64,000 bases of DNA from Nonomuraea jiangxiensis (GTDB taxonomy: Bacteria; Actinomycetota; Actinomycetes; Streptosporangiales; Streptosporangiaceae). The stretch lies in NCBI RefSeq assembly GCF_900099965.1, contig NZ_FNDJ01000006.1:1-64000 (forward strand), given 5' to 3'. The notes under the pieces are model-generated. The model did not search any database, had not been told where the DNA came from, and saw nothing but the letters and a program-made list of their open reading frames with translations. The first letter of the stretch is position 1; the number at the start of each line of letters is the position of its first letter. Below are positions 15,843-44,852 of this stretch, one piece after another. The position numbers and the translations under genes were made by a program.

Positions 15843-17120
15843 CTAGAGGTTCACCGCCACCGGGGACTTGTGCAGGTTCGCGATGGCGGCCACGTACACC
15901 TCCAGCAGCCGCGACGCCGTCGCCTGCCAGCCGAACGCCGCCGCGTGGGCGCACGCGCCCTGCGACAGCTCCTCCCGCCGGCGCGGCGCGGTCAGCAGGC
16001 CGTGCAGCGCGCGGGCCCAATCCGCCGGATCGTGGCCGTCCACGAGCACGCCCGACACCCCGTCCCGTACGGCGGTGCGAAGCCCTCCCACGGCGGCGGC
16101 CGCCACCGGGGTCCCACAAGCCTGGGACTCCAGGGCCACCAGCCCGAAGGACTCGCTGTACGAGGGCACGACGGTCAGCGAGGCCGCCCGGTACCAGTCG
16201 GCCAGTTCCTCCTGGGGAGCGGGCGGCACGAGGCGGACGACGTCGGAGAGGCCCAGCTCGGCGGCCAGTTCGGTGAGGAACGAGGGCCGGGCCAGGCCGT
16301 TGCCCGAGGGCCCGCCGACGCAGGCCACCACCAGGCGCTCGCGCATCGACGGGTCGTCGATGAGCATCCTGGAGGCCGCGCGCAGCAGCACGTCCGGCGC
16401 CTTGAGCGGCTGGATCCGGCCCACGAACAGCAGCACGTGGGCGCCCTGCGGCAGTCCCAGCCGGTCCCTGGCGACCGCCTGGGAGCCGGGCCGGAAGACG
16501 GCGAGGTTGACGCCGGGGTTCACGACGGCGACCCGCTGCTCGGGGGCTCCGTACAGGTCGACGAGCTCACGGGCCTCGTCCACGGTGTTGGCCACGAGGC
16601 GGTCGGCGATCTCCACGACCTGTTCCTCGCCCACCACGCGGGCCCGCGGCTCGGGCTTGTCGCCCCGGGCCAGCAGCAGGTTCTTGACCTTGGCCATGGT
16701 GTGCATGGTGTGCACGAGCGGCACGCCCCAGCGCTCCTTGGCCAGCCAGCCGACCTGGCCGGACAGCCAGTAGTGGGAGTGGATGAGGTCGTAGCGGCCC
16801 GGGTCGTACATGGCCTCGGTGCGCAGCACCTCCGACAGGAAGGCGCAGAGCTGGGCCGGCAGGTCGGCCCGGTCCATCTCCTCGTAGGGGCCCGCCGTGA
16901 GGTGGCGCACGAGGACGCCCGGGGCGAGTTCGGCCACGGGTGGCAGGTGGCGCGCGGTGGCCCGGGTGAAGATCTCGACCTCCACGCCGAGCTGAGCCAG
17001 CCGTTTGGCGGACTCGACGATGTACACGTTCATGCCGCCGGCGTCGCCCGTTCCGGGCTGGTCCAAGGGCGACGTGTGCATGCTGATGGTCGCGACCCGG
17101 TTGACCCGCCGTCGCCTCAC
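15843..17120 (-). CDS. mshA: D-inositol-3-phosphate glycosyltransferase MshA
   Basis: The first committed enzyme of mycothiol synthesis; it joins UDP-GlcNAc to inositol 3-phosphate. 425 residues, a GT-B family 4 glycosyltransferase. The N-terminal domain has [23 protein letters not shown], where inositol phosphate and UDP are bound. The C-terminal domain has [17 protein letters not shown] and the [19 protein letters not shown] donor motif. The start is the GTG at 17120 after GGAGGTGG. The presence of mycothiol synthesis confirms an actinobacterium. Confidence 0.95.
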
Positions 17121-35984: not shown

Positions 35985-38942
35985 TCAGGTGGGCGACGGG
36001 GCGTCGGCGAAGGCTATTTCCGGGGCGCCGCCGTGGTCGAAGGGCAGGACGAAGCGGCGCGGCCACGACAGCACCGTCTCCAGCCACCCGGCCCCCATCG
36101 TCTGCCCCACGTGCCTGACCCGGGCCGACGCCTCGATCCCGATCGCCACCGTCGTGATGTCGCGCTGCACCCCTTCGCTCTCGTCGTCCCCCAGGATCAC
36201 CCGCCACGCCAGCGCCCGGTTGTGGTCGACCTCCATCGACAGCGGATGGTGGCGCAGCGCCTTGGCCCGGTGGCCGAGCAGCTCGGTGTGGACGAGGTCG
36301 TAGGAGGTGGCGCCGTTCGGCTGGCGGAACAGGGCGTACTCCATGGGCGGCGCCGGGCTGCGCAGGTCGGGGGCCGGCCGGCCGTAGGGGAAGAGCCGGT
36401 CGACCTCGTGCAGCCAGCGCACCTGCGGGATGACCCAGCCCGCCCCGGGGCGCTCCCCGCCGCCGGAGGTCCCCGACAGCAACCGCGTGGCCGTCTCCGC
36501 CGCCTGCTCCGTGAGCAGCGCCGGGTCGAACCAGCTCCGCAGCGACCAGGCGCGCCGCTGCACCGACCGCTCGATCAGCGTGGCCAGCAGGCACTCCCGG
36601 CGCCGGGCCGGCAGGTCGGACCAGGCGGCCGTCAGGACGCGCGGCACCCCGGGCAGCGGCCGGTTGCTGACGAAGGCGAGCACCACCGTGTCGCACCAGA
36701 TGCGCAGCCACGCCCAGTCCGGCGAGTCGGCCAGCACGTCGGCCTCGCGCAGCTCGACGAGGGTGCACGCCTGGCCGGTACGGCACTGCGCGCCGCACGC
36801 CGCCGACCTGCGTCCGCGGATGGGCGGGGGCGGGCCGGGGAGCGTCTTCTCCCTGGACTCCCCGAGCGGTACGCGGACCCGCAGCGGGCGGTCCATGCCG
36901 TCGGCGAAGACCGCGGCCGAGCCCGGCTGCAGGGACACCACGTGGCGGGACTGCTCGTCGCTGAGGTTCATGGCGGCGCCGACGAGGTTCCTGTCGTCCT
37001 CGGCGGGGAGCCGGTGCACGACCTTCAGCGCGGTGTTCTTGACCACGTCGGAGACGAGCTTGGTGGGGATCTGCTCGGCCACCACGATGCCCTCGCCGTA
37101 CGCCCTGATCTCGGCGAGCAGGCCCGCCAGCAGCTCGACGGCGTGGGTGGAGGCCCGCCCGTGGCCGCGGTCGCGCAGCAGCCGGTGCGCCTCCTCGATC
37201 ACGATGACGTGGCGCAACTCGGCGGACTTCTCCTTCCTGGCCCGCATGCGCAGGTGCTCGACGATCCTGATGATCAGCGTGCCCATGAGGAACGCCTTGT
37301 CCTCGTCGTTGGCCACGTCCTCGATCGCCAGCACCACGTTCCGCTTCAGCAGGCCGCCGATGTCGGCGGGGTGGCCGCCCTCGAAGAAGCGCCCGGCCGA
37401 GCCGACGCGCAGCGACCGCAGCCGGAGCGAGATGAAGCCCTCGACGTCGGCCTGCACCTCGCGGCCGTAGCCGATCTCCTTGATCACGTCCATGGCGTGG
37501 TGCTGGAGCTGTTCGAGGGTGGGCACGCTGGGCGGGACGTTGGCGCCGGGGACGGCGCCGCCGGTGACGACGTCCCAGCCGGTGGCCTCGTAGACGCGCT
37601 GCAGGGCCAGCGACATGATCTGCGGGAACGGCTCCTCGGCGTCGAACGCGGCCATGAACAGCGCCCGCACCATGTCGATGTGGGCCTGGACGGGATAGCC
37701 GGGCTCGGGTTCGAGCGGGTTGATGCTGAACGGCACGCCGTCGGGGGCCGAGGGGTTGATGACCGTGAGGGGGTCGTCGATGCGGCCGGCCATGGCGGCG
37801 TACTCGGACTTGGCGGGCTCGATGGCCAGCCAGGGGATGGCGGCCCGGCTGAGCTGCTCCAGCAGGTGCCTGACGGTCTGCGACTTGCCGGAGCCGGTGG
37901 CCCCGGTGACGAACGCGTGCCTGTTGAGCGTGGCCAGCGGCACCCGGAACGAGCCGACGCCCCGGTCCTGGCCGTCGAGGATCTCGCCCAGCTCCAGCTC
38001 GCCGCCGTCGGTCTCGGAGGTCACGTCGAAGAAGCCGGAGTCGAGCACGCGTACCCCGGGGACCTCCCGCCGGGGCAGCCCGGCCAGCGCGGCCAGGGCG
38101 CCGGCGGTCGCCGCGAACGGGGCCGCGGCGCCGTCGGCCGGGTCCTGCATGGTGATCGCCAGCGCCTCCGACAGCGCGTAGACGGCGCCGTGCGCGCTGC
38201 GCAGCCGGTAGGGGTGGTGGCTCATCTCCACCGACCCGACCAGTACGGGCGCGATCTGCCGCAGTTCCTCGGCCGTGGCGCCGCCGGCCAGCACCCGGAC
38301 GTTCCAGAGCCCCGCCTCGCGGAACGCGTCGAGCTCCTGCATGCGGCGCTCGGCCCGCTCGGCGTCGAAGCGGGAGCGCTCGGAGGCGTCCCCGTACTGC
38401 CGCAGCACGTTGAGCTGGGTACGCAGGTGCGCCACCTCGGCGTCGAGCAGGTCGGTCGGCTCGGCCACCACCAGCCAGGCGAACGGCCGGGACATGAGCG
38501 TGACCAGCGTCGACTCGAACAGGGTCGGCCGCCGCAGCTCGTCCGGCTCGCGTCCCCTGTTGCCCAGCGGCGGCGCCTGGCGGCCGGGACACGGGGTCCA
38601 CACCAGGTCGGCCAGGTCGGCCAGGTACTCCTCGTCGAGCGTGACCCCGCGCGCGCCTCCCGGGAACAGCAGCGGCTGCGGCCCGCTCGGATGGTCGGGC
38701 GCGTCGGTCGACCTGCGCGGCTGGCGCGGCGGCGACAACGGCCCCGCGTTGGTGATGAGCTCGAGCGGCGCTCCGGAACCTCGCGACAGCCACCCGATGA
38801 CGAACGGCCGGTCACGCTGGGCCGCCGACAGCACCGCGGGCAGCACGGTGACGAAATCCCACTCCGCCGACGAGCTTCGCGAAGGCGCCGCGATCGACTG
38901 GATTCGATACCAGGGCCCACTCAGCGAGACACTCGGCTGCAT
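35985..38942 (-). CDS. HerA/FtsK-like (DUF87) ATPase
   Basis: 985 residues. A P-loop ATPase of the HerA class, typically a hexamer that pumps DNA or drives membrane-linked complexes. Walker A is GATGSGKSQT (about 347-356), Walker B is VIVIEEAH (about 579-586), and EQIPTKLV and LVGAAMNLSD follow at the expected arginine-finger and C-terminal positions. The N-terminal 340 residues include a long helical segment (about 165-215) and resemble no domain I know. The C-terminal 250 residues contain a possible zinc cluster (AACGAQCRTGQAC). There is no nearby NurA or other nuclease, so it is not the usual HerA-nuclease pair. It follows the 648-residue membrane partner by 71 bases. Confidence 0.8.
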   Translation of the reverse strand: MQPSVSLSGPWYRIQSIAAPSRSSSAEWDFVTVLPAVLSAAQRDRPFVIGWLSRGSGAPLELITNAGPLSPPRQPRRSTDAPDHPSGPQPLLFPGGARGVTLDEEYLADLADLVWTPCPGRQAPPLGNRGREPDELRRPTLFESTLVTLMSRPFAWLVVAEPTDLLDAEVAHLRTQLNVLRQYGDASERSRFDAERAERRMQELDAFREAGLWNVRVLAGGATAEELRQIAPVLVGSVEMSHHPYRLRSAHGAVYALSEALAITMQDPADGAAAPFAATAGALAALAGLPRREVPGVRVLDSGFFDVTSETDGGELELGEILDGQDRGVGSFRVPLATLNRHAFVTGATGSGKSQTVRHLLEQLSRAAIPWLAIEPAKSEYAAMAGRIDDPLTVINPSAPDGVPFSINPLEPEPGYPVQAHIDMVRALFMAAFDAEEPFPQIMSLALQRVYEATGWDVVTGGAVPGANVPPSVPTLEQLQHHAMDVIKEIGYGREVQADVEGFISLRLRSLRVGSAGRFFEGGHPADIGGLLKRNVVLAIEDVANDEDKAFLMGTLIIRIVEHLRMRARKEKSAELRHVIVIEEAHRLLRDRGHGRASTHAVELLAGLLAEIRAYGEGIVVAEQIPTKLVSDVVKNTALKVVHRLPAEDDRNLVGAAMNLSDEQSRHVVSLQPGSAAVFADGMDRPLRVRVPLGESREKTLPGPPPPIRGRRSAACGAQCRTGQACTLVELREADVLADSPDWAWLRIWCDTVVLAFVSNRPLPGVPRVLTAAWSDLPARRRECLLATLIERSVQRRAWSLRSWFDPALLTEQAAETATRLLSGTSGGGERPGAGWVIPQVRWLHEVDRLFPYGRPAPDLRSPAPPMEYALFRQPNGATSYDLVHTELLGHRAKALRHHPLSMEVDHNRALAWRVILGDDESEGVQRDITTVAIGIEASARVRHVGQTMGAGWLETVLSWPRRFVLPFDHGGAPEIAFADAPSPT

Positions 38943-39013
38943 TTCATTCCCCCACAGACGGTTCTTTGTTAAAGTCCGCCAACCGTCAGCCCTTCACCTC
39001 GGCCTTGACCAGG

Positions 39014-40960
39014 TCATTGCCTGCCCTTGCGCCAGTCCAGGCGTGGCGGTGGTGGCCCGAGGTTCGGCGGCGGCTCTGCGTCGCCGTCCCGCGCCTCGGG
39101 ATCGATCGCGAGCACCGCCTCGCGTACGTCCTCCAGCTCGCCGAGGGTGGTCTTGGGGAAGGTCAGGATGGCCGGGTTCGCGTCGGCGAGGCGGACGCGC
39201 CTGCCCTCGGCCGTGGCGTCCGTGACGATCACCGAGGTGGTGGGGAGCTGCTGGAGCTCGTGCGGCTCGACGAGGAACTCCCGCGAGCGCTGCAGCACCC
39301 GCTCCCGCTCGCCGATCTTCTCGGCGGTCCTGCCCCACTCGGTGGACTCGGTGATGTCCTCGGCCAGGTCGGCGCTGGTGTCCTCGTGATCCCCCGGGGC
39401 GTCCTCCACCTGCGAGATCGTGGAGGTGTAGCCGCCGTTGAGCCCGGGCAGCGAGTCGCTGATCGTCTCGGTGAGCTGGGCCAGCTCCAGCCGGTGCTCG
39501 GTGCCGACGTGCTCGCTGGCGACCCGGGCGTCCTCGGCGTTGCCCAGCCGCATGAACGCCACCGCCGCGTGTCCCCGGCCGAGCCGCTCCCGCACCGTCG
39601 GCGTCAAAGACCGATAAGTCAAGACAAGTCCGGTACGCGAGGTCTCGCAGGCGTCCATCAGCCGGTCGAGCACGTCACCGCGGAGCTTGTCCGCGCCCGC
39701 CACGATCATCGTGTGGTACCAGGGCCGGTCGGAGGCGGGGGACTGGCGCAGGATGTGGGTCAGGGCGGTGGCCACGTACGTGCCGAGCACCCGGTTGCCG
39801 AACACCCCGGCCTGCCGGTCCATGCTCACCACCCGCAGCCGGGCCGGCGGCAGCCGTACAGCCTGCGTGCCCAGCGTCTCCAGCTTGCGCAGCTGTGACT
39901 CCAGCGCCCAGGCCCGCTCGATCACCACCCGATCCCTCACCCCGCGCCCGAACAGGGTGCCGATGCGCTCCAGCTGGGTCGCCGTGATCAGCCCGAACCG
40001 CAGGTCGTCGCGCGGATCCCCGACCTGCGCCAGCGCCCGCAGCGCGGCGGTGACCTGGCTGATCGTGGCGTTCTCGCCGAGCACCTCCAGCACCCGCTCC
40101 AGGATCGCGTTGTCGAAGCTGAGATCGCCTGTGCTGCGGTGCTCCTCGCTCACGCTCACCACGTGCGCCAGCACGTCGGCGAACGCCTCGGGCCGGAGCG
40201 TGGCGCCGAGGTCGAGCCGCGGCAGGTCCACCGGCAGCACCCAGACCAGCGGGTCGTCGCCGCCCTTGCGGGCCAGCTCGATCAGGTCCTTGGCGATCGC
40301 GCCCTCGGACAGGTCGAGCACGGTCAAATGGCCGCCGCTGTAGAGGCGCGTCGCCCCGAGCAACGTCACCAGCGCCGACCACCCGGGCAACGTGCCGCCC
40401 GCCACGTCGATGCGGTCGATCTCGTCGGGTACGGAGACCGCGTACCAGGTGAGCTGCCTGTCGTGCCGCTCCTTGGAGTCCTGCCACTCGCGGTAGCGCT
40501 GGGCGTGCTCCTCCTGCGCGCGGAACAGCTCCTTGTCACGTTCCCGGCGCCTGCGCTCATCCCTGGCCTGCTGCTCCAGCACCCGGTATTTGACCGCCCG
40601 GTCGCCCTGGACCAGCGCGAAGCTGCAGATGCCCGCCACGCCGCCGGCGGCGACCAGCCCGAGCAGCGCGAAGGACCAGTCGAGGTATCCGGCGATCGCC
40701 GCGGCCAGGATGAGCACGCTCACCACCAGCATGAACAGCCGGAAGAGCCGCACCGGGCGGTTGAGCATGTCCTCCTGGAGCCGCTCGCGGCGCAGCAGCT
40801 CCGGGTCGGGGTGGTCGGGCCCGGCGGCGGGCGACGACTCCTGGACGGGCGAGGGACGCTTGGGCGGCGGCCCCGGGTCAGGGTGCAGCAGGATGTACTG
40901 CCAGCCCAGGTAGATACGGTCCGCCTGGAGCTGTGCATGCTCGGGATGCACGTCCGTCAC
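39014..40960 (-). CDS. Membrane-anchored coiled-coil protein, HerA partner
   Basis: 648 residues, not recognised. It has two membrane helices (about 72-91 and 94-117), then a charged coiled coil (about 125-170), then a long soluble domain with alternating strands and helices (SALVTLLGATRLYSGGHLTVLDLS, LVWVLPVDLPRLDLGA). This part looks like a degenerate P-loop or TraG-like fold without a Walker A sequence. An acidic stretch (about 540-555) precedes the C-terminus. The GTG at 40960 has GGAGGG 4 bases upstream. Its place just before the HerA ATPase suggests it anchors that ATPase to the membrane. Confidence 0.6.
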   Translation of the reverse strand: MTDVHPEHAQLQADRIYLGWQYILLHPDPGPPPKRPSPVQESSPAAGPDHPDPELLRRERLQEDMLNRPVRLFRLFMLVVSVLILAAAIAGYLDWSFALLGLVAAGGVAGICSFALVQGDRAVKYRVLEQQARDERRRRERDKELFRAQEEHAQRYREWQDSKERHDRQLTWYAVSVPDEIDRIDVAGGTLPGWSALVTLLGATRLYSGGHLTVLDLSEGAIAKDLIELARKGGDDPLVWVLPVDLPRLDLGATLRPEAFADVLAHVVSVSEEHRSTGDLSFDNAILERVLEVLGENATISQVTAALRALAQVGDPRDDLRFGLITATQLERIGTLFGRGVRDRVVIERAWALESQLRKLETLGTQAVRLPPARLRVVSMDRQAGVFGNRVLGTYVATALTHILRQSPASDRPWYHTMIVAGADKLRGDVLDRLMDACETSRTGLVLTYRSLTPTVRERLGRGHAAVAFMRLGNAEDARVASEHVGTEHRLELAQLTETISDSLPGLNGGYTSTISQVEDAPGDHEDTSADLAEDITESTEWGRTAEKIGERERVLQRSREFLVEPHELQQLPTTSVIVTDATAEGRRVRLADANPAILTFPKTTLGELEDVREAVLAIDPEARDGDAEPPPNLGPPPPRLDWRKGRQ

Positions 40961-41131
40961 GTGACCCTCCGGCCGCCATATGTCTTAAGAGAGTAAGGGT
41001 CCGGCCCTTTCCGCTCCGTGACAGCGTATGAGCTTCCGGCCCCGCAGCGGCAGGGTTTCTCGGCAATTCGACCCGCCCGATGGGACCATTGCGGCAGATG
41101 GGATAAGCGAGACCTATTACCATCCTTACCC

Positions 41132-41794
41132 ATGACGGAACCCTCCGGCGGCAGCAGCGACAAGCCGAGACGCCCGGTGGTGGTGCCCGTGATCGCCCTG
41201 ACGGCGCTCACCGCCGTCGGCGTCACCGCCTTGCTGGGCGGCCTCGGCGAGGCCCCCGACGAGCTGGACACGCTGGGCGCGGGCGCGGTGCTCGACCAGG
41301 GCCAGTACGACACCAAGTTCGTCGAGACGCGCGTCACGGTCGTGCCCCCCGAGTCGGAGTTCCAGGACGAGAAGCGGTTCCTGGAGATGGTCTTCGACGT
41401 CACCAACAAGGGCGACGAGACCGCCGACGTGGGATTGCCCGCCCCGAAGCCCGAGCAGGCCTATCTGTCCGCCGGCTTCGGTGCCTCGCTGCTCAAGATC
41501 ACCCCGGCTTTCGGCAAGGACGCGGGGCCGTTCGTCTTCGCCCAGGCCAAGGGGGGCGAGACCCGCCAGCTCCAGCCGGGGGTGCCCGCCCGGGTCATCG
41601 TCCGTTACCAGCTCCAGGAGAACCAGCCGCCGCCGGAGAAGGTCTCCTTCGAGGTGGCCGGCTTCGAGTTCTCCCCCGACTTCAACAGCGACATCCCGCG
41701 CTGGCAGATGATCACCAGCGAGGTGGGCGACAAGTTCCTGCCCGAGGTGAAGGCGCGCGTGACGATGACCGTCAAGAAGGGCGCGGCCACGTGA
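41132..41794 (+). CDS. Single-pass membrane protein with exported beta domain (1 of 3)
   Basis: 220 residues. A short cytoplasmic N-terminus is followed by one helix (about 19-36: VVPVIALTALTAVGVTALL). The exported domain looks like a DUF4352-type Ig sandwich (VETRVTVVPPESEF, FLEMVFDVTNKGDETADV). The ATG at 41132 begins MTEPSGGSSDKP. It is the first gene of a plus-strand trio divergent from the HerA pair; the overlapping stop-start with the next gene shows an operon. Confidence 0.6.
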   Translation: MTEPSGGSSDKPRRPVVVPVIALTALTAVGVTALLGGLGEAPDELDTLGAGAVLDQGQYDTKFVETRVTVVPPESEFQDEKRFLEMVFDVTNKGDETADVGLPAPKPEQAYLSAGFGASLLKITPAFGKDAGPFVFAQAKGGETRQLQPGVPARVIVRYQLQENQPPPEKVSFEVAGFEFSPDFNSDIPRWQMITSEVGDKFLPEVKARVTMTVKKGAAT

Positions 41795-42438
41795 CCGCCA
41801 CCGAGCCGCGATCCGCCACCGCGCCGCCGCGGCGCACCAGACGGGCCGCCAGGCGGCCCGGCGCCGGGGCCCGGCTGCTCGGCGTCGTGGCCGGCCTGGT
41901 GCTGCTGGGCGCGGCCGTCGGGGTGCAGTCCATGGACATGGCCGAAGGCGAGCTCAGCGACCCGATCACCTACACCGGCGCCAAGGGCGAGAACGTGGAC
42001 GCGCAGCGGTTCACCGTGCGACTGGACTCGTTCAGCGCCGCGAGGTCGGTCCAGACGAGCACCGCGACCCTCGGCACCGACAACCTCTTCCTCATCGTCA
42101 ACGCCTCGGCCAAGTCCAGCCGCAAGCCGTACCACCTGGGCCAGCCGGTGCTGGTGACCGCCGACGGCAAGCGGTTCGACGCCACCGACCGGATCGACAG
42201 ATCGCTGACGCTGGCGAACACGTGGGTGCAGCCGGACATCTGGGTCAGCGGCCGGTTCTTCTTCGAGGTGCCGGCGTCGGTGCTGGCGGGGGCCGGCGTG
42301 GTGTTCGGGTTGCCGCCGGCGGCCGGGCCGGTGGAGCCGTACCAGCCCGAGGTCGAGGTGGATCTCGGCCTGGACGAAGAGGGCGCGCGCAAGCTCGCCG
42401 CCTCGCCGCAGGACGTCTTCTCGACCGTCAGGAAGTGA
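41791..42438 (+). CDS. Single-pass membrane protein with exported beta domain (2 of 3)
   Basis: 215 residues with the same architecture as its neighbours: a basic cytoplasmic N-terminus (TRRAARRPGAGAR), one helix (LLGVVAGLVLLGAAVGV) and an exported domain of beta-strand pattern (AQRFTVRLDSFSAA, TDNLFLIVNASAKSS). The GTG at 41791 overlaps the previous stop by four bases (GTGA), so the genes are coupled. Sequence identity between the three proteins is low, but the order of segments is the same. Confidence 0.6.
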   Translation: MTATEPRSATAPPRRTRRAARRPGAGARLLGVVAGLVLLGAAVGVQSMDMAEGELSDPITYTGAKGENVDAQRFTVRLDSFSAARSVQTSTATLGTDNLFLIVNASAKSSRKPYHLGQPVLVTADGKRFDATDRIDRSLTLANTWVQPDIWVSGRFFFEVPASVLAGAGVVFGLPPAAGPVEPYQPEVEVDLGLDEEGARKLAASPQDVFSTVRK

Positions 42439-42445
42439 ACGCAGG

Positions 42446-43555
42446 ATGAGCACCAGCGACGGGAACGACTGGTTCACCCCCAGGAAGGACCGGCGGCGCG
42501 ACGACCAGGACGCGCCGCCCCCCGCCGCCCCCCACCAGCCACCTCCGGGCGGGCACCGCGGCCCCGCCACACCGCCGCCCGGCCCCGCCATGCCGCAGGG
42601 CACGCCGCCCGGGAGTGACATCACGCAGGCGATGGGCCTGCCGCCCCGGCCCGGCCTGCGACCTCGGCCCCGCGCGCCGCGGGGACCCGGGATGCCGCAG
42701 GCGCGCGGTCCCCGGACCCCCTACCCCGACCAGCAGGTCTGGCCCCCCGCCGACCGCGATCCCACGGGCGGCGTCACCCAGCCCATGCCGATCGTGCGGA
42801 ACCCCCTGCCCATGCCGCGGGCGGGCGGCCCGCGACCGCATGCCGCACCACCGCCGCCGCCACAGGCCACGGCGCCCCAGACGGCTCCACAACCGCCGCA
42901 GGCCGCACAGCCCGGGGTGGAAGGCCAGGGGACGCCCCCGTCGCCGCAGGAGCGGCCGCAGCCCGCCGCGGAAGGGCGGCAGCGGCCCCGGCGGCGGCGC
43001 ACGGTGCTGGTCGCCGTGGGAGTCGTCGTGGTGTCGCTGCTCACCATCGGCGCCCAGTCCTACGACGGCTACCTCTTCTACGAGAAGGTCACCACGCCGC
43101 GTCCGACCAGGATCGTCCCGGTCGCCGCCGGGCAGGCGGGGAAGGTCTACAACGTCGAGTACCGGGCCTCCATCACGCCCATAGAAGCCCCCGAGGGCAG
43201 CAAGCACGGCCCCGAGGTGACCTGGCTGAAGGTGGAGATCACGAAGAAGGTGCTGGATCCGGCCAGCGCCACGATGGTCGCCGAGCCGGGCGACAACAAG
43301 CTGACGGACCGCGCGGGCCGTACCTGGACGGTGGAGCTCCAGCCGGGCGACCGGCCGACGGACCGGCTGGAGGTGGGCAAGGAGTACAAGATCGAGGGGA
43401 TGGCCATCGTGCCGACCCCGGTGGCGAACGAGGTCGAGCTCTCCATCCGGCCGAGCACCTACCGCTCGGACACCCCCACGGAGGACTTCTTCGATCGGGA
43501 GAAGATGTCCAAGCTGGAGCAGGACATCGACATCCTGGCCTTCAAGCGCCGCTGA
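42446..43555 (+). CDS. Single-pass membrane protein with exported beta domain (3 of 3)
   Basis: 369 residues. A long proline-, glycine- and arginine-rich cytoplasmic part (about 1-185) precedes one helix (VLVAVGVVVVSLLTIGAQS) and an exported domain with NVEYRASITPIEAPE, VTWLKVEITKKVLDP and the family end. The proline-rich region is typical of protein-binding tails, possibly for docking to a cytoplasmic ATPase. It starts 7 bases after the previous gene. It ends before a convergent polytopic membrane protein gene. Confidence 0.6.
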   Translation: MSTSDGNDWFTPRKDRRRDDQDAPPPAAPHQPPPGGHRGPATPPPGPAMPQGTPPGSDITQAMGLPPRPGLRPRPRAPRGPGMPQARGPRTPYPDQQVWPPADRDPTGGVTQPMPIVRNPLPMPRAGGPRPHAAPPPPPQATAPQTAPQPPQAAQPGVEGQGTPPSPQERPQPAAEGRQRPRRRRTVLVAVGVVVVSLLTIGAQSYDGYLFYEKVTTPRPTRIVPVAAGQAGKVYNVEYRASITPIEAPEGSKHGPEVTWLKVEITKKVLDPASATMVAEPGDNKLTDRAGRTWTVELQPGDRPTDRLEVGKEYKIEGMAIVPTPVANEVELSIRPSTYRSDTPTEDFFDREKMSKLEQDIDILAFKRR

Positions 43556-43571
43556 CGGGCGGGCGACCGGC

Positions 43572-44852
43572 TCAGACGTCGTCGAGGGGCTCGCCGCTGA
43601 GGCGGGCCCTGGTGGCCGCGATGTCGTACGTGGCCGCCAGCAGGGCCATGCTGAGCGCGGTCGCGATCATCTGGCGGACGAACGTCAGCGGCGGCCCCTG
43701 GAAGACCCAGACCCACTCGCTCCCCGCGCCGATGAGCTTCACCACCGCCCGCTCGGCGTACTCCGAGCCCACCGTGATGCTCACGTAGCACAGGCACATC
43801 ATGCCGAAGAGCGGCAGACCGCCCTTGAAGATCATCCGCAGCGAGTTGGCCAGCGGCAGCCAGCGGTCCCTGAACCCCCCGGTGACCTGGTCGAACGACC
43901 GCTGCGTGAGGTCGTGGCTGCCTTCGAGCCGGTCCACGCCGCGTTCCAGCCGGGTGCCCTTGACCAGAGTGCGGGTCTGGTCGGAGTAGGCGCCGAAGAC
44001 CAGCATCGCCACGGTGAGCCAGGCCAGCGGGACCGCGACCGCGTCGGTGATCAGCGGCCAGACGTCCCCGATCGCGCCGGTGACGGTGTCCCACAGCGGC
44101 ACGCTCTTCTCCGCCTGGGCCCAGACGTGTTCCGTGTTCGCGACCACGTTGCGGTGCTCCACCCAGTCGGAGCGCAGCTGGGCGGCCGCCAAGGTGGCGT
44201 TCAGCCCGTAGAAGACGAAGGCGAACTCGGAGAAGGCCGCGAGGAAGCCGTAGAACTTGCCCTTCTGCTTCTCCACGAGCTTGGCGAACAGCAGCTTCAG
44301 CAGGAACGTGACGGCCATCGCGCCGAGCGATACCCGCCAGTCGAGGTCGACCAGCCCCCGGCCGACCTGCGAGTCCTCGCCGAACCATGCCGCGTCGGTC
44401 ATGTCGTAGAAGTGGTGGAACAGGTCCATCTGGTAGATGTCGCGGGCGTCCTCCACCTGGAACCCCCACGCCAGATAGAGCACCGCGAAGGCCGGGGCCA
44501 CCCGGTCCAGCGTGCGGAAGAAGTGCTCCTCCGCCACGCCGTCACCGGACCTGGCCCGCATCTCCCACAACGCGCCGCGCAGGCTGTGCAGCATGCCGGT
44601 GGTGACCGTCATCGCCGCCAGGACGATGAACGTGAGCAGCGTCATGGTGCCCACCAGGCGGACCTGGCGGAGGTCCCCGTACGCGATCTCGGTGGCGCCG
44701 TACAGCAGCACGAAACGGACCAGCTCGCCCGCGGCGAACCAGAGAGCCAAGGGCAGGGCACACTTGCCCGCCAGCCGCAGCGCGTGCGCCGGCAGCGAGT
44801 ACGGCGACGGCATCCGCTGAGCCGGCGTAGGCGAAGGTTCCGGGGGCGCCAT
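43572..44852 (-). CDS. Polytopic membrane protein of unknown function
   Basis: 426 residues with about seven hydrophobic segments (for example LALWFAAGELVRFVLLYG, LLTFIVLAAMTVTTGML, AVPLAWLTVAMLVFGAY and LFGMMCLCYVSITVGS). I do not recognise the family. Several ATGs are possible; 44852 follows AGGAG at 2 bases, and 44900 would add 16 residues. It sits beside the HerA-partner module and is convergent with the third exported-domain gene, so it may be its membrane component. Confidence 0.55.
   Translation of the reverse strand: MAPPEPSPTPAQRMPSPYSLPAHALRLAGKCALPLALWFAAGELVRFVLLYGATEIAYGDLRQVRLVGTMTLLTFIVLAAMTVTTGMLHSLRGALWEMRARSGDGVAEEHFFRTLDRVAPAFAVLYLAWGFQVEDARDIYQMDLFHHFYDMTDAAWFGEDSQVGRGLVDLDWRVSLGAMAVTFLLKLLFAKLVEKQKGKFYGFLAAFSEFAFVFYGLNATLAAAQLRSDWVEHRNVVANTEHVWAQAEKSVPLWDTVTGAIGDVWPLITDAVAVPLAWLTVAMLVFGAYSDQTRTLVKGTRLERGVDRLEGSHDLTQRSFDQVTGGFRDRWLPLANSLRMIFKGGLPLFGMMCLCYVSITVGSEYAERAVVKLIGAGSEWVWVFQGPPLTFVRQMIATALSMALLAATYDIAATRARLSGEPLDDV

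Follow-up and report, generated by a model that had tools for sequence, protein, structure and literature searches.

The window analysed here, a 64,000-nucleotide stretch of the Nonomuraea jiangxiensis contig NZ_FNDJ01000006.1, contains a gene pair encoding a HerA-type ATPase and a 648-residue membrane protein (M648), divergent from three genes for single-pass exported-domain proteins (E1, E2 and E3), the last of which converges with the gene of a polytopic membrane protein (TM426). All six open reading frames exist as described in the original prediction, with two start codons corrected from homologues: that of E1 moves to codon 39 (~41132) of a frame of 258 amino acids (aa) that began at 41018, and that of TM426 to codon 14 (~44813), leaving 220 and 413 aa, respectively. 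What does not survive is the proposal that the six genes make up a single system. They constitute two modules, HerA with M648 and an independent E1-E2-E3-TM426 cassette, and we give an even chance to a scheme in which HerA-M648 is a motor that would export toxins in relatives and grip the tail of E3 here.

The HerA-M648 pair and the envelope cassette

Among the 66 Nonomuraea/Streptosporangium-group loci whose DNA reaches 9.5 kb or more upstream of HerA, M648 lies beside HerA in every case and E1, E2 and TM426 are also present in 63, a gene order far from chance. Across the order Streptosporangiales, HerA occurs in 137 of 200 genomes and TM426 relatives in 144, and the two sets of genomes differ. 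Many genomes have TM426 without HerA, and the loci fetched around TM426 from such genomes (L168-L172, L174, L175, L179 and L180) show an E cassette in which TM426 is joined at least by E2 and one more single-pass gene. In several genomes of genus g18, which we take to be Actinomadura-like (L166, L167 and L178), 53-100 kb separate the cassette from HerA; elsewhere it is duplicated in tandem as a unit (L087, L092, L106 and L181) or is absent (L078 and L100). HerA and M648 remain paired without it, and the pair travels together through actinobacteria. The six-gene unit thus fails because the cassette occurs without HerA and, elsewhere, unlinked to it; the scattering among related genomes that the original prediction had named as telling against it is seen for the cassette but not for HerA-M648.

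Identity to genera other than Nonomuraea is mostly 70-89% for HerA, M648 and two MurT/GatD-like genes versus mostly 26-51% for E1-E3 and TM426; the motor evolves at the pace of its housekeeping neighbours and the envelope cassette much faster. With the nearest named Nonomuraea HerA proteins, identity of the window HerA is 92-95%. The gene pair that begins 112 bp downstream of HerA, presumably MurT-GatD, stays beside HerA in nearly all family loci; MurT-GatD functions in peptidoglycan amidation. The ten flanking genes are ordinary (asparaginase, GCV_T-like, FUR, sigma factor, Ada/MGMT, rhodanese, LmeA and others), and the earlier statement that no nuclease, primase or secretion partner is present holds for these ten and the six genes themselves, all of which were scanned.

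Table 1 Features of the HerA-M648 locus and the E1-E2-E3-TM426 cassette in the window.
Feature	Position	Strand	Remarks
HerA-type ATPase, 985 aa	35985..38942	-	Pfam matches above cut-offs; Walker A/B
M648, 648-residue membrane protein	39014..40960	-	71 bp upstream of HerA, same strand
M648/E1 intergenic stretch between divergent genes, 170 bp	40961..41131	.	Presumed from its position to carry the promoters of both M648 and E1
E1, single-pass exported-domain protein, 220 aa	41132..41794	+	Start at codon 39 from homologues
E2, single-pass exported-domain protein, 215 aa	41791..42438	+	Start overlaps E1 stop
E3, 369 aa: ~183-aa disordered proline-rich cytoplasmic tail, one transmembrane helix, exported domain	42446..43555	+	
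E3 tail motif 1, DWFTPR, residues 8-13	42467..42484	+	62/67 linked tails
E3 tail motif 2, DQQVWPP, residues 95-101	42728..42748	+	64/67 linked tails
E3 tail motif 3, TQPMP, residues 111-115	42776..42790	+	65/67 linked tails
TM426, polytopic membrane protein, member of the E cassette, 413 aa from supported start	43572..44813	-	Convergent with E3

An active HerA and a putative pseudo-ATPase

HerA belongs to the HerA/DUF87 family (Pfam HerA_C, 34.5 bits with a cut-off of 22; DUF87, 27.5 bits with a cut-off of 23.2). Its Walker A (GATGSGKSQT, K353) and Walker B (VIVIEEAH, E583/E584) motifs are both intact, Walker A being present in 38 of 38 homologues, and it has extra regions of ~300 aa at the N terminus and ~290 aa at the C terminus. 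In the latter, cysteines C716, C720, C726 and, further on, C784 are near-invariant in the family alignment, which suggests a metal-binding element after the ATPase domain. The protein falls far under the cut-off of every named NCBIfam equivalog: the best match is CedD (65 bits, cut-off 600), the defence equivalog NF042943 gives 47 bits (cut-off 800), and the models for the HerA-NurA repair helicase give 39.9 bits (NF040937, cut-off 800) and 28.9 bits (NF040819, cut-off 970). PADLOC HerA models and mad8 match its generic ATPase domain. There is no nuclease among the HerA-flanking genes tested, a NurA elsewhere in the genome not having been searched for.

M648 consists of two N-terminal transmembrane (TM) helices, a coiled coil, a putative VirD4/HerA-like domain and a proline-rich C terminus. 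GGTLPGW (residues 188-194) stands at the place of the P-loop, within a family consensus of GG(T/S)xx(G/S)(W/R); Walker A is absent from every homologue tested (52 and 19 aligned, 39 in a wider set), and the acidic Walker B pair is missing from the alignment. In VIA structure comparisons, residues ~211-597 match TrwB (Z 9.7), VirB4 (8.7), the Dot coupling complex (8.7), DndH-C (8.4) and HerA (7.5), and the top eight rows are all TrwB, VirB4, type IV coupling proteins or DndH-C, with Z of 9.7-8.4 obtained from a weak model as query. These fold matches lend medium support to M648 being a membrane-anchored pseudo-ATPase of VirD4/HerA type.

Unusual arrangements of the pair were seen in two genomes. 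G478 has two inverted, nearly touching M648 homologues (L123, 7919-11851), with its HerA on another contig, and in Streptomyces G597 a ~190-aa remnant beside HerA (L149, 11076-11657) resembles a decayed M648 with a GGTGSGWE-like motif. We also considered NF033849 ('serine-rich protein') as a fusion of M648 and HerA; the match positions are suggestive and do not establish it.

The nearest known machines can be told apart from the pair by their components. VirD4/TrwB coupling proteins share with M648 the two N-terminal TM helices and perhaps the fold of the soluble part (the TrwB match, from the weak model), but M648 lacks the Walker A and B motifs of a functional coupling protein and has a separate HerA motor, and VirB4, VirB6, VirB8 and relaxase are absent from the six genes and ten flanking genes, the rest of the genome not having been searched. 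Type VII secretion, whose EccC/EssC and YueA-like ATPases are of the FtsK/HerA type, differs in that the active and inactive units are here separate polypeptides, with a HerA-clade member as the active one, and in that no WXG100/LXG, EccB/D/E or EsaA/EssA-type Pfam match was found in the scanned genes and effectors, with distant loci scanned in part. The ATPases of type VII and type IV secretion are nevertheless the closest known systems, and by these components the locus belongs to neither. The HerA-NurA, HerA-DUF4297, HerA-SIR2 and HerA/FtsK capture systems likewise combine a HerA ATPase ring with a partner, but their partners are soluble nucleases or NADases, whereas that in the window is the putative membrane pseudo-ATPase. 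Archaeal Ced, in which two HerA/VirB4-like proteins (CedB and CedD) act jointly, includes the best NCBIfam match to HerA; it differs in being a DNA importer, the score lies far below the cut-off and no CedA-like partner was recognised here.

Toxin-like proteins encoded beside HerA in relatives

Outside the order, HerA and M648 relatives co-occur and are usually adjacent. In Streptomyces, Nocardia and family f9, the pair is followed by an effector gene, often with a 4-bp overlap with HerA, whose product joins a disordered proline-rich/acidic N terminus to a variable C-terminal enzyme domain. Pfam assigns these domains to ADPrib_exo_Tox (E 3.5e-28 and 2.1e-24), Peptidase_C2 (7e-11, 6.8e-9 and 4.9e-12) and Colicin_E5 (3.1e-34); effector domains with scores under the cut-off were judged by eye, and gene starts in the fetched loci were set mechanically. 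On a linear plasmid of Streptomyces clavuligerus, M648, HerA, an ADP-ribosyltransferase and a small gene form an operon with overlaps of 4 bp and then 1 bp after HerA; on a Nocardia plasmid, M648 and HerA precede a 725-aa protein that shows a lipase-like GHSLG motif, with an ankyrin protein next in line; and on an S. antimycoticus plasmid the pair is followed first by a protein that weakly matches RelA_SpoT and then by a 94-aa gene. On Streptomyces chromosomes the gene after HerA encodes an ADP-ribosyltransferase (L120) or a calpain-type protease (L121, L146 and L147). Family f9 has HerA in 15 of 151 genomes and M648 in 15 of 16 new loci; the product of the gene after HerA usually has the disordered proline-rich/acidic N terminus, one effector ending in the Colicin E5 RNase domain and one being homologous to the papain-like effector of L118.

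Mutually homologous proteins of 119 and 134 aa (E 1.8e-11) follow the two ADP-ribosyltransferase effectors and are immunity-like, as is the ankyrin protein after the Nocardia effector; at most other loci no immunity gene was identified. Similar N-terminal regions joined to exchangeable ADP-ribosyltransferase, C2 and Colicin E5 domains, with weaker RelA/SpoT and papain-like matches and, in some cases, immunity-like genes, are the sequence signature of polymorphic toxins. The effectors are diverse and include one recognised RNase only, so HerA does not, in the usual sense, lie beside a nuclease in most homologous loci, an arrangement that the original prediction had expected to count against its reading. 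In the Streptomyces and second-copy branches, and not in the window lineage, a membrane M48-type metallopeptidase (Pfam E down to 6e-20, L127 just under the cut-off) stands beside M648 (L120, L121, L146, L147, L127, L128, L156, L157, L159 and L160) and may process the exported effectors.

Two smaller observations concern effector genes. At L121 (~16141-16320), a 58-aa open reading frame directly after HerA shares the MSELY-type N terminus of the following effector, in the manner of an effector stump, and L209 has two tandem effectors with matching N termini and different C termini.

The original prediction did not decide between DNA and protein as cargo. Relatives favour protein, and a protein-trafficking motor is, on present evidence, most likely, rather than a DNA-repair HerA. 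A DNA translocase, either a septal chromosome pump or a TraB-like device for mycelial transfer in which M648 would form a collar at the membrane and the tail proteins would provide anchorage, seems to us quite unlikely: HerA proteins are best known as DNA motors, the low-scoring CedD match is to an archaeal DNA-import system (PMC11868833) and Streptomyces TraB alone moves double-stranded DNA (PMC12857230), but the relatives are coupled to toxin-like proteins and not to relaxases, clt repeats or nucleases, and none of the genes scanned near the window locus is a transfer gene. We also regard as unlikely, though less so, that HerA, M648 and effector form an intracellular anti-phage or abortive system, in which the motor would sense or capture invading DNA at the membrane and free or activate the toxin in the same cell, with the small gene as antitoxin. 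HerA/FtsK capture modules are known in anti-invader systems (PMC10853773, PMC12839542), the PADLOC and mad8 models do match the ATPase domain, and plasmid-borne copies are patchy. Strongly diversified effector C termini and immunity-like partners, however, better suit toxins that act between cells; M648 is membrane-anchored and has no match in phage records, on which ground a phage origin was set aside as well; and the core version, present in so many genomes of the order and as slow as its MurT/GatD-like neighbours, is unlike a defence island.

A literature search for an earlier description of the HerA-M648 system gave a single hint. A RelA/SpoT toxin without signal peptide, an alarmone synthetase of Streptomyces albireticuli, is encoded near TrwB/TrwK/TrwI-like genes (TrwB-like and VirB4-like) that were read as a type IV secretion system (PMC12691689). 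Likened through its published description only, that locus is possibly of the same kind as the HerA-M648-effector loci (compare L186), but neither a pairing of HerA with a pseudo-ATPase, nor an effector class, nor a tail motif is described in the paper.

E3 tail motifs and a proposed function of the pair in Streptosporangiales

The disordered tail of E3, random in appearance, carries three short motifs, whose patterns were defined on part of the sequences counted here: WF[ASTGV]xP is found in 62 of 67 HerA-linked E3 tails (0.5 expected after shuffling each tail), VWP(P/A) in 64 (0.8 expected) and a TQPxP-like motif in 65 (3.8 expected). None of the three occurs in any of 15 third genes from unlinked or HerA-less cassettes, several of which have long proline-rich tails. 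In both G186 and G187, the WF motif is present in the HerA-linked E3 and missing from an unlinked paralogue, and at the four loci with a duplicated cassette beside HerA, one E3 copy carries the motif and the other does not. The tail also outlives its cassette: L078, which has lost E1, E2 and TM426, keeps a 141-aa tail-only protein (DWFSPP, VWPP and STQPFP), and L100 keeps the E3 tail and membrane anchor with no exported domain. At 25 loci of g18 type or related to it, the orthologous HerA has a pair of unrelated single-pass proteins beside it, the first with (D/E)SWFAxP in 20 of the 25 and the second with a WxPP motif of IWQPP type in most. A proline-rich WF tail followed by a TM helix was found at none of 11 second-copy HerA loci, 26 effector-linked loci and 15 unlinked cassettes. 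The WF motif is absent from effectors, and effectors and tail clients are therefore not recognised via the same motif.

This pattern has the appearance expected of a docking motif, and HerA or M648 probably grips the tail motifs. The guess that the third protein's proline-rich tail is where the HerA ring docks, advanced from this single locus, thereby gains evolutionary support from the linked and unlinked counts, and further backing from the two loci where the tail outlasts the cassette and from the related motifs on unrelated single-pass proteins of sister lineages. It is improbable, in our judgement, that the two modules are mere neighbours with no functional contact; a complete cassette does exist without HerA and far from it, but the motifs occur at HerA-linked loci only, the tail persists when the remaining cassette is lost and a single E3 copy retains the motif after duplication.

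The window's core Streptosporangiales clade (100% support in the Shimodaira-Hasegawa-like approximate likelihood ratio test) sits in the HerA tree amid effector-linked lineages on both sides, and the loss of an adjacent effector in this lineage is therefore the simplest reading. Under the scheme we favour, M648, with its two TM helices and catalytically dead VirD4/HerA-like domain, would anchor the motor at the membrane and receive the substrate, and the active HerA ring would thread or pull substrates by their disordered proline-rich N-terminal segments, the direction of force being presumed. In relatives, the substrate would be the toxin-like protein encoded directly after HerA, which the motor most likely exports. 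In the Streptosporangiales lineage, the pair would have lost its adjacent effector, become fixed and slow-evolving, and come to act on a membrane-anchored client defined by a single-pass cytoplasmic tail with WFxP, VWPP and TQPxP; this client would be E3 here and the two unrelated proteins in sister lineages, the E1-E2-E3-TM426 envelope cassette being tethered to the motor via the E3 tail. A membrane-located machine for moving or gripping macromolecules, in line with the original prediction, is the best reading.

Several points weigh against the export scheme. Toxin export is something we infer, no secretion having been observed; the HerA proteins that have been characterised act as DNA pumps or drive defence complexes; and the neighbourhood yielded neither an outer channel nor a pilus component. 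The window's own HerA-MurT interval holds no effector and the locus no polymorphic-toxin arrangement, that interval exceeding 0.75 kb at just 1 of 71 family loci. The linked tails come from one family and are related by descent, and their motif counts are therefore not independent events. The AlphaFold model of M648 is poor (mean pLDDT, the predicted local distance difference test, of 53) because it was built from close homologues alone, and profile-profile comparison of M648 with HerA (19 and 20, then 40 and 39 sequences) detected no homology, so the pseudo-ATPase reading has the fold match as its single basis.

A somewhat unlikely alternative is that the motor of the core lineage no longer exports anything and instead serves in envelope stress or force transduction, with HerA-M648 pulling on E3 and its analogues, sensing through them or organising them. 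The clients are membrane-anchored, the neighbours resemble the MurT-GatD genes of peptidoglycan amidation, and the tail-only (L078) and tail-plus-TM (L100) clients persist without an exported domain; an ancestry among effector-linked lineages, however, suggests transport. In its full form, transport would amount to an undescribed actinobacterial system for protein export or delivery, which we put forward tentatively, at somewhat short of an even chance: an active HerA ring with a membrane-anchored VirD4-like pseudo-ATPase would recognise disordered proline-rich N termini, secrete polymorphic toxins in Streptomyces, Nocardia and relatives, and have been domesticated in Streptosporangiales as a fixed envelope machine for the WFxP/VWPP/TQPxP tails of interchangeable single-pass proteins.

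Type IV and type VII secretion, two of the main routes of toxin export, are driven by motors of the FtsK/HerA superfamily. If real, the pairing of a HerA-clade motor with a membrane pseudo-ATPase, followed by exchangeable toxins, would be a further export route in antibiotic-producing actinobacteria, and its core version would be an example of a conflict machine that became a fixed function of the cell. HerA-M648 loci suggest places to seek actinobacterial contact toxins, and the tail motifs make the question of HerA's target a peptide-binding experiment.

The remaining proteins of the cassette are less distinctive. E1 and E2 weakly resemble the exported domains DUF5067 (E 0.0065) and DUF4352 (E 0.031), respectively, both below the Pfam cut-offs, and M648, E3 and TM426 have no significant Pfam match; the possibility that E1, E2 and E3 are mutual paralogues was rejected (hhalign probability at most 12%). 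The AlphaFold model of TM426 is all-helical (mean pLDDT 83), with no Foldseek match at E <= 0.001; its best VIA row is yeast PNS1 (Z 11.3, root-mean-square deviation 7.5, 248 aligned residues), a weak score for a helical membrane protein. The match to PNS1, a choline-transporter-like protein, spans nearly the full length of TM426 and is not decisive.

Two observations lie outside these subjects. In Nonomuraea rhizosphaerae (L052, 13030-15997), an insertion of nearly 3 kb occupies the gap between HerA and the MurT-like gene and encodes an AAA ATPase and a further protein that, by eye, look like an RloA/RloB defence pair. The 11.85-Mb circular record NZ_LT559118.1 of Nonomuraea gerenzanensis, filed as a plasmid, is evidently the chromosome.

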